NCBI RefSeq assembly: GCF_000511385.1 | Contig: NC_023137.1 | Span: 999,001-1,063,000, forward strand | Origin: Phaeobacter gallaeciensis DSM 26640 | Lineage (GTDB): Bacteria; Pseudomonadota; Alphaproteobacteria; Rhodobacterales; Rhodobacteraceae | Direction: 5' to 3' | DNA length: 64,000 bases | Shown here: positions 54,116 to 55,479 of the stretch, one piece after another | Layout: every line of letters starts with the position of its first letter | Position numbering within the stretch: the first letter of the stretch is position 1 | Program-made: the position numbers and the translations under genes | Notes under the pieces: model-generated | Told to the model about the DNA's origin: nothing | Database searches by the model: none | Seen by the model: the letters and a program-made list of their open reading frames with translations, nothing else

Positions 54116-54144
54116 TTGACCAAACGGCGGTTTCGGCGTATCCG
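54116..54144 (+). promoter_or_regulatory. Promoter of the metZ riboswitch transcript
   Basis: TTGACC (54116-54121) and TATCCG (54139-54144) are exactly 17 bp apart. Transcription would begin near 54150, a few bases before the SAM-II aptamer, which supports the assignment. Confidence 0.65.
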
Positions 54145-54154
54145 AAGCTCACAT

Positions 54155-54213
54155 ATCGTGGCGATTTGTTTACCGGATTGCGGGCCACGTAAAACAATCC
54201 CGCTAAAGAGGTC
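54155..54213 (+). promoter_or_regulatory. SAM-II riboswitch of metZ
   Basis: The sequence has the whole SAM-II pattern. CGTGG (54157-54161) pairs with CCACG (54185-54189). The loop has the conserved GATTTG and CCGGATTGC. The pseudoknot pairs GCGGG (54180-54184) with CCCGC (54199-54203), followed by the conserved CTAAAG. SAM-II elements bind S-adenosylmethionine and switch off methionine genes in alphaproteobacteria. The Shine-Dalgarno-like AAAGAGG (54205-54211) lies at the 3' edge, where ligand binding would hide it. Confidence 0.92.
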
Positions 54214-54225
54214 AGGATGTGAAGG

Positions 54226-54259
54226 ACCCCCTTTCGCTTGGCCGAACGGGGGTTTTTTT
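54226..54259 (+). terminator. Intrinsic terminator between riboswitch and metZ
   Basis: ACCCCC (54226-54231) and GGGGGT (54248-54253) form a 6-bp stem with a 16-nt loop followed by T-run (54253-54259). It lies between the SAM-II aptamer and the metZ start and is probably an attenuator. A start-stop ATG-TGA (54217-54222) and a GTG-initiated 45-codon open frame (54219-54356) begin just before it, both served by AAAGAGG at the aptamer's end. Confidence 0.8.
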
Positions 54260-54288
54260 AATGCGCATTGCGCGCAAGGAGATAGAAG

Positions 54289-55479
54289 ATGAGCGAGACC
54301 TGGAACAAACGCACCAAACTGGTGCATGGCGGCACCCGGCGCAGCCAGTACAATGAGGTCAGCGAAGCGATCTACCTGACGCAGGGCTTTGTCTATGACA
54401 GCGCTGAGCAGGCTGAGGCCCGGTTCATCGAGACCGGTCCCGATGAATTCATCTATGCCCGCTACGGCAACCCCACGGTGGCTATGTTCGAAGAGCGGAT
54501 TGCCGCGCTGGAAGGGGCCGAGGACGCCTTTGCCACCGCGTCCGGCATGGCGGCGGTCAATGGCGCGCTCACTTCGATGCTGAAGACGGGTGACCATGTG
54601 GTTTCGGCCAAGGCGCTGTTTGGCTCCTGTCTCTATATTCTTGAGAATATCCTGACCCGCTTTGGGGTTGAGGTGACTTTTGTTGATGGCACCGATCTTG
54701 GCGCTTGGCGCGCGGCGCTACGGCCCGACACCAAGGCGGTGTTTTTCGAATCCATGTCCAACCCGACGCTGGAAGTGATCGACATTGCAGCGGTGGCGGA
54801 GCTGGCCCATGCGGTCGGTGCCACCGTCGTGGTGGACAATGTGTTCTCGACTCCGGTGTTCTCAAACGCCATCGAACAGGGCGCGGATGTGGTGATCTAC
54901 TCAGCCACCAAGCATATCGACGGGCAGGGCCGGGTTCTGGGTGGCGTCATCCTTGGAACGCGCGATTTTATCCGCGGCACCGTTGAGCCCTATATGAAAC
55001 ACACCGGCGGCAGCCTCAGCCCGTTCAATGCTTGGACCCTGCTAAAGGGGCTGGAGACAATTTCGCTCCGGGTGAATGCGCAGGCGGACAGTGCGCTGGA
55101 ACTGGCGCAGGCGCTGAGCGGTCATCCGGCGCTGTTGCGGTTGATGTATCCGGGGCTGGAAGATCACGCCCAACACGCGCTGGTCCAGCGGCAATTGGGC
55201 GGCAAGGGCGGCACTGTGCTGTCGCTGGATCTAAAAGGCGGCAAGGAGGTGGCATTCAGGTTCCTGAACGCGCTCACCATCCCGGTGATTTCCAACAATC
55301 TGGGCGATGCGAAATCCATTGCCACCCATCCAGCCACCACCACCCATCAGCGGTTGTCGGAGGAGTTGAAGGATGAGCTGGGCATCACCCCGGGGCTGGT
55401 GCGGTTCTCGGTCGGGTTGGAGGATGCAGGTGATTTGATTGCGGATCTGACGCAAGCGCTTGCGGCGGCTGAGGGCTGA
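54289..55479 (+). CDS. metZ: O-succinylhomoserine sulfhydrylase
   Basis: The 396-residue PLP enzyme of the Cys/Met metabolism family makes homocysteine from O-succinylhomoserine and sulphide. The N-terminal KLVHGGTRRSQYNEVSEAIY, the catalytic SATKHIDGQGRVLGG (Lys208) and the C-terminal TTHQRLSEEL fit MetZ. Control by SAM through the upstream riboswitch agrees with a role in methionine synthesis. AAGGAG lies 7 nt upstream of the ATG. O-acetylhomoserine use cannot be excluded from sequence. Confidence 0.93.
   Translation: MSETWNKRTKLVHGGTRRSQYNEVSEAIYLTQGFVYDSAEQAEARFIETGPDEFIYARYGNPTVAMFEERIAALEGAEDAFATASGMAAVNGALTSMLKTGDHVVSAKALFGSCLYILENILTRFGVEVTFVDGTDLGAWRAALRPDTKAVFFESMSNPTLEVIDIAAVAELAHAVGATVVVDNVFSTPVFSNAIEQGADVVIYSATKHIDGQGRVLGGVILGTRDFIRGTVEPYMKHTGGSLSPFNAWTLLKGLETISLRVNAQADSALELAQALSGHPALLRLMYPGLEDHAQHALVQRQLGGKGGTVLSLDLKGGKEVAFRFLNALTIPVISNNLGDAKSIATHPATTTHQRLSEELKDELGITPGLVRFSVGLEDAGDLIADLTQALAAAEG

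Follow-up and report, generated by a model that had tools for sequence, protein, structure and literature searches.

A SAM-II riboswitch that probably attenuates metZ transcription through a direct antiterminator in Phaeobacter gallaeciensis

The 64,000-nt stretch of DNA analysed here (the window; Phaeobacter gallaeciensis DSM 26640, NC_023137.1 positions 999,001–1,063,000, forward strand, with positions below counted from its first letter) carries, in 5' to 3' order, a SAM-II aptamer, the motif AAAGAGG at the aptamer edge, an ATG-TGA start-stop with an overlapping GTG frame, a terminator and metZ with its own Shine–Dalgarno sequence. The features are the following:

54116–54144, + strand: candidate promoter, read from the sequence as TTGACC (54116–54121), a 17-nt spacer and TATCCG (54139–54144)
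54148–54227, + strand: SAM-II (SAM_alpha) riboswitch aptamer (RF00521, 60.9 bits, E 1e-11, gathering score 36)
54157–54189, + strand: P1 stem-loop, CGTGGC (54157–54162) with GCCACG (54184–54189), from the Rfam consensus structure line
54202–54212, + strand: 3' strand GCUAAAGAGGU of pseudoknot P2, which includes AAAGAGG, from the core CTAAA..GG and the role given to P2 in excerpts of PMC9373788 and PMC5352136
54210–54225, + strand: predicted 5' arm of the antiterminator, GGUCAGG, UG and GAAGG, with A54217 and U54220 bulged (RNAfold of 54202–54245; register and permutation tests)
54217–54222, + strand: ATG-TGA start-stop, from the sequence; the genus keeps the ATG, which is repeatedly lost outside it
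54219–54356, + strand: GTG frame of 45 aa that overlaps metZ, from the open reading frame list
54226–54259, + strand: intrinsic terminator hairpin and T tract, from sequence and fold, found in 135 of 154 relatives
54230–54243, + strand: predicted 3' arm CCUUUCGCUUGGCC of the antiterminator, overlapping the left arm and loop of the terminator (RNAfold of 54202–54245; register and permutation tests)
54276–54281, + strand: AAGGAG, the Shine–Dalgarno sequence of metZ, from the sequence, 7 bases 5' of the metZ ATG
54289–55479, + strand: metZ, O-succinylhomoserine sulfhydrylase-like, 396 aa, from the open reading frame and 80 relatives at 82–91% identity

The aptamer put forward in the original prediction was confirmed by a covariance search, in which RF00521 was the sole Rfam match above its gathering score within the window, and no further SAM-II copy turned up when the whole genome was searched. 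The conserved GATTTG and GCTAAA..GG core and the P1 stem are all present in the aptamer (RF00521 alignment and sequence), which would be expected to bind SAM. GCTAAAGAGG begins at 54202, and AAAGAGG occupies 54205–54211; the Rfam structure line omits the pseudoknot, for which the possible P2 pairs are CC (54173–54174) with GG (54210–54211) and A54172 with U54212.

The locus was compared with three sets of leaders. SAM-II elements were found in 160 of the 198 Rhodobacteraceae genomes searched and, in a search of the genus Phaeobacter, in all seven genomes; two family genomes (G077 and G178) had two matches each, and the other family genomes listed had one. The family set, taken from the family matches listed and a search of the genus, holds 156 loci (30 initial and 119 further ones among the matches listed) and 154 distinct leaders, two (L033 and L049) having been dropped as identical in leader to L034; all 154 precede a metZ-like gene. 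The near set consists of 80 named loci picked by metZ similarity, 79 of them readable (L172, with no readable aptamer, was dropped), and the class set of 70 leaders from 67 of 141 matching genomes, taken from the better-scoring ones, of which 63 were readable and 7 were dropped. One record titled Nocardioides marinus (Actinomycetota; L158) has a metZ that is 89% identical to that of the window and groups with Leisingera; it is probably mislabelled or mixed.

The core CTAAA..GG is found in 154 of 154 family leaders, though the same pattern also served as their anchor, and the AAAGAGG strand takes the form CTAAAGAGG in 101, CTAAAAGG in 43 and others in 10. By a simple pattern match, the third P2 pair is Watson–Crick in 111 of the 154, a wobble in 9 and unpaired in 34. 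AAAGAGG had been claimed as a Shine–Dalgarno sequence: the motif is there, but because its strand is part of the aptamer it is by itself no evidence for a ribosome-binding site.

Upstream of the aptamer, TTGACC-17-TATCCG is likely, from its sequence, to be the promoter, and transcription would start near 54151. The motif was read directly in the sequence and is absent from the output of a consensus scan of the window; TTGAC lies at most 52 nt 5' of P1 in 143 of 154 relatives, and 35–38 nt 5' of it in 114, by a pattern match made without a shuffled control. For the gene at 54289–55479 we assume the name metZ, which comes from the original prediction and from knowledge of the family; its closest named relative is in Phaeobacter italicus (91% identity), by a search that may leave out the window's own record and very close ones. 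The ribosome-binding site that had been claimed for metZ is borne out by AAGGAG 7 bases before its ATG, and a loose Shine–Dalgarno-like pattern (3–4 letters) stands 5' of metZ in 146 of 154 relatives. Between the T tract of the terminator and this site lies a small hairpin, TGCGC...GCGCA (54262–54276), and a hairpin after the terminator that folds at −4 kcal/mol or below occurs in 98 of 120 relatives; it is weakly better than shuffles, and with so weak a signal (mean z −0.87) it was set aside as a functional element.

The terminator is also as had been claimed, and its stem has an energy of −14.7 kcal/mol. Its left side consists of ACCCCC (54226–54231), a mismatch and TTCG (54233–54236), its loop spans 54237–54242, and its right side consists of CGAA (54243–54246), a mismatch and GGGGG (54248–54252), followed by the T tract (54253–54259). 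A simple consensus scan missed it, probably because the inner mismatch gives a loop too long for the scan rule. The finder used for the comparison detected a terminator with T tract in 135 of the 154 family leaders, in all 79 leaders of the near set whose aptamer was readable and in 41 of the 63 readable class leaders; its presence after the aptamer in 135 of 154 relatives argues that the terminator is not there by chance. The finder undercounts: it scored 22 of the 70 class leaders as lacking a terminator, in several of which one is visible by eye with a T tract after an A. In the remaining 19 of 154 family leaders, SAM-II precedes metZ and the finder saw no terminator (L003, L010, L016, L020, L044, L046, L050, L056, L061, L063, L064, L105, L106, L109, L110, L135, L137, L140 and L142), and in two of these, L063 and L142, a T tract after an A was again seen by eye. 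Some family leaders without a terminator may control translation or work in another way.

Folding of 54202–54245 with RNAfold predicts, for the window, a 14-pair antiterminator hairpin of −14.8 kcal/mol in which GGUCAGG (54210–54216), UG (54218–54219) and GAAGG (54221–54225) pair with CCUUU, CG and CUUGGCC (54230–54243). Since this hairpin takes both the GG of P2 and the left arm and loop of the terminator, the outcomes are mutually exclusive. Many class-wide leaders (L237–L306) have GGUCGG or GGCCGG as the strand after the aptamer and CCCUGACC, CCCGACC or CCGGCC as the left arm of the terminator. Both P2 G residues pair with the terminator arm in 39 of the 41 class leaders that have a terminator.

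A raw count of such pairs says little, because a strand rich in G readily pairs with an arm rich in C: all 135 leaders form at least four pairs, and a minimum of eight is reached in 96% of real cases, in 82% after arm swapping and in 62% after full shuffling. Plain counting was rejected as evidence after these swapped and shuffled controls. In a first swap test over all 135 leaders, matched arms bound at −11.2 against −8.6 kcal/mol, but the mean z was only −0.9 and, at the median, 18% of swapped arms performed as well as the true one; this test includes near-identical arms, and representatives were used instead. When terminator arms were exchanged between dissimilar leaders and the linker–arm binding energies compared, true partners bound more tightly than exchanged ones both among 50 family representatives (−10.53 versus −8.81 kcal/mol; 0 of 10,000 permutations as low) and among 28 class representatives (−11.11 versus −9.46 kcal/mol; 3 of 10,000 permutations). 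The same test gave 0 of 10,000 permutations for the 77 representatives of both sets pooled and, with a stricter cut, 92 of 10,000 for 14 family representatives and 0 of 10,000 for 28 from both sets.

The register of the pairing was tested as well. In an alignment of 53 leaders (50 distinct), chosen by eye from the 135 for having the window's type of terminator, the true register keeps 89.1% of cells paired versus 30.5–69.8% when slid, and 15 cells are changed on both sides versus 6.1 in shuffles. In a larger and more uniform alignment (59 distinct), pairs hold in 90.5% of cells versus at most 61.7% when slid, and two of five covariation measures were no better than shuffles. The aptamer, the terminator and the alternative pairing with its conservation are observed in the sequence and by computation.

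To stand in for the SAM-bound state, the P2 strand was withheld from pairing in the energy calculations. With P2 blocked, the antiterminator loses 5.8 kcal/mol on average, and at least 2 kcal/mol in 133 of 135 leaders. For the window at 54202–54252, the free RNA folds into the antiterminator (−15.5 kcal/mol) and the RNA with P2 withheld into the terminator (−13.5 kcal/mol); one base further, to 54253, the energies are −15.5 free and −15.3 kcal/mol blocked, and if C54243, a base shared with the terminator, is left out, the antiterminator stands at −11.1 versus −13.5 kcal/mol. After transcription of the T tract, the terminator is favoured whether or not P2 is withheld (−19.8 kcal/mol). When P2 is blocked, the minimum-energy fold changes from antiterminator to terminator in 45 of the 135 family leaders, 49 of the 79 near ones and 7 of the 41 from the class set. 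The terminator is favoured in both states in 83 of 135 family and 32 of 41 class leaders, the antiterminator in both in 6 of 135 family and 30 of 79 near leaders, and neither fold appears in 1 of 135 family and 2 of 41 class leaders. The antiterminator is by prediction exclusive with both P2 and the terminator in the window, and the flip in energy is confined to part of the relatives; together with the narrow margin in the window, this argues that the switch must depend partly on the order and timing of folding, as is the case for other attenuators.

We consider it very probable that the SAM-II riboswitch represses metZ by transcription attenuation that needs no ribosome and works through a direct antiterminator. 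At low SAM, the free GG of AAAGAGG and the linker (54210–54225) would pair with the terminator across its left arm and loop (54230–54243); with the antiterminator formed, the terminator would not form, RNA polymerase would continue into metZ, and the read-through metZ would be translated from its own Shine–Dalgarno sequence. With SAM bound, P2 would hold the GG, the antiterminator would lose its outer base pairs and the terminator would form, freeing a leader RNA of about 110 nt. We infer SAM binding, the termination switch, the ends of the transcripts and the direction of control. The earlier view that the riboswitch acts on the terminator and not on the start site of metZ agrees with the placement of the elements and with the evidence.

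An improbable alternative is that the terminator is fixed, such that transcription of metZ is always lowered and leader RNA always made, while SAM-II influences RNA stability or works in trans. Of the window's final folds the terminator is indeed the most stable, and it already prevails at the decision point in the 83 family leaders noted above; moreover, excerpts of Scheuer et al. 2022 (PMC9373788) describe a terminator of Sinorhizobium meliloti metA that limits expression in both media, with no SAM-II-driven antiterminator predictable, and leader RNAs that are stabilised at high SAM. A fixed terminator would not, however, need the observed matching of linker and terminator arm, and S. meliloti metZ itself is predicted in the same excerpts to switch.

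The original prediction was a translation-gated attenuator, in which a ribosome at the leader start (ATG 54217 or GTG 54219) would, without SAM, cover the left arm of the terminator, and SAM would hide the Shine–Dalgarno sequence. Both reading frames are present as it described them, and the ATG is well placed, with AAAGAGG 5 nt upstream. It is retained in 7 of 7 Phaeobacter genomes and, at the window's position, in 58 of 79 near relatives, the others having ACG (20) or AAG (1); GTG stands at the window's GTG position in 20 of the 79. Across the family set, an ATG lies 4–11 nt past the aptamer in 39 of 154 leaders, versus 11.6 expected from shuffled linkers, and any start codon at this spacing in 58 versus 34.4. 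ATG occupies the window's exact position in 23 of the 154.

Against this reading, the codon is gained and lost repeatedly. In a maximum-likelihood phylogeny of 85 metZ genes (84 different), ATG changes to or from ACG or AAG at least six times among these near relatives, and well-supported branches require five of these changes. ACG is found in the six rows labelled Leisingera, and ATG in the eight rows of the branch of the window's genus. No ATG, GTG or TTG is found at spacing 4–11 in 13 of the 79 near relatives. In the family set, 115 of 154 leaders lack an ATG at this spacing and 135 have a terminator, so a terminator in the absence of such an ATG occurs in at least 96. The original prediction had named a leader start codon not conserved in relatives as grounds for refuting it, and 58 of 79 near and 39 of 154 family leaders are not the pattern of a conserved one, which counts against the ribosome step as a general mechanism.

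The frames fare no better. Those that follow the ATG run for 1 to 116 codons, or stay open for at least about 170 codons in nine leaders, and the number of C residues in the terminator arm shifts the frame after the ATG; conservation therefore extends to neither the peptide nor the frame, and only partly to the start codon. With no constant frame or peptide after the ATG in the 154 leaders, a leader peptide was rejected. The GTG frame at 54219–54356 is probably not a gene. Attenuators of the trp and his type, which are ribosome-mediated, exchange a terminator and an antiterminator in a leader with a small reading frame; unlike in those systems, the leaders here showed no conservation of a peptide, a run of codons or a start codon.

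The pairing offers part of an account of the ATG excess. The middle base of the window's ATG pairs with G54236 in the predicted antiterminator; among near relatives this base is U or C, with one A, and its predicted partner is G in 54 of 58 ATG and 17 of 20 ACG leaders. A change from ATG to ACG destroys the start codon yet keeps the RNA pair, so the excess is explicable by shared descent and the pairing constraint. In addition, the antiterminator predicted for SAM-free RNA engages the GG of AAAGAGG and also the UG of the AUG (mean unpaired probability about 0.5 for GAGG and AUG), and the proposed ribosome site would therefore be half masked when the gene is ON. We therefore regard a ribosome gating the terminator as very improbable, the antiterminator explaining the linker without one: what stands of the earlier proposal is that the riboswitch gates the terminator, and what falls is the translation step. 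ATG-TGA is probably an incidental product of the antiterminator sequence. The ATG may nonetheless be used; the data can be explained without selection on it.

A hybrid is conceivable where the ATG is kept, in Phaeobacter and other lineages, with an initiating 30S subunit on AAAGAGG-AUG aiding the antiterminator and with several gains and losses as ATG and ACG alternate. We think this very unlikely too; if true, SAM would set ribosome loading and termination at once through one strand.

Slightly less likely still is distant ribosome loading, in which the aptamer Shine–Dalgarno sequence would recruit the 30S subunit for the downstream start of metZ, a mechanism reported for S. meliloti metA. The order of aptamer Shine–Dalgarno sequence, AUG1, terminator and second start is that of S. 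meliloti metA in excerpts of PMC9373788, and the nine leaders whose ATG frame stays open for at least about 170 codons (L028, L065, L066, L080, L083, L086, L121, L124 and L148) probably run into metZ; by analogy with AUG1 of S. meliloti metA, an extended protein could be made from them. However, metZ has AAGGAG at 54276–54281 and relatives share a Shine–Dalgarno-like pattern there, and in the window a TGA directly follows the leader ATG. Direct occlusion, in which the aptamer strand would be the Shine–Dalgarno sequence of metZ itself, is at odds with AAGGAG and with the same pattern in 146 of 154 relatives.

SAM-II elements with a terminator before the gene have precedents. Excerpts of earlier work record putative terminators downstream of many SAM-II aptamers (Corbino et al. 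2005, PMC1273637), SAM-II with terminator platforms (Barrick and Breaker 2007, PMC2258182) and metY as the core target of SAM_alpha in Rhizobiales and Rhodobacterales (Leyn et al. 2014, PMC4239095); relative to those platforms, the antiterminator is here spelled out and compared, and its sequence varies between lineages. The nearest likeness is S. meliloti metZ, whose switch is predicted to terminate transcription on SAM binding and which shares, in the excerpts of Scheuer et al. 2022 (PMC9373788), the aptamer class, the position before metZ, the terminator between them and the OFF logic. Its SAM-II leader yields an RNA of about 100 nt, more abundant in high-SAM medium, so that a terminated RNA of about 100–110 nt has been measured there and would be expected for the window (PMC9373788, excerpts). 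The predicted fold of S. meliloti metZ may already show the same pairing.

Other SAM-II systems differ more. Excerpts of a 2024 review assign SAM-II to direct occlusion (PMC10907184). The Sargasso Sea metX element (PDB 2QWY) has the same aptamer class and an RBS-like 3' strand inside P2, which excerpts of PMC10907184 and PMC9373788 take as the ribosome-binding site of the gene, whereas in the window the P2 strand is the predicted antiterminator arm and the metZ Shine–Dalgarno sequence lies 65 nt further on. S. meliloti metA shares the aptamer Shine–Dalgarno sequence, a near AUG, the terminator and a downstream start, but its AUG2 alone drove no translation and no antiterminator was predicted for it (PMC9373788, excerpts), whereas the window has a good metZ Shine–Dalgarno sequence and a predicted antiterminator. 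In the open-licence literature, covered mostly as titles and the beginnings of abstracts, we noticed no description of a SAM-II antiterminator in Rhodobacteraceae, and we found no open-licence paper that treats SAM-II together with Phaeobacter.

We class the element in the window among the SAM-II transcription attenuators that had already been predicted for Alphaproteobacteria, ordinary in kind, and the new addition is the comparative analysis of the antiterminator, which defines the exact base pairs for testing. The results suggest that, in many Alphaproteobacteria, the strand read as a Shine–Dalgarno sequence is the first arm of an antiterminator and that the linker evolves together with the terminator; a start codon can then arise in such a leader as a by-product of RNA pairing.
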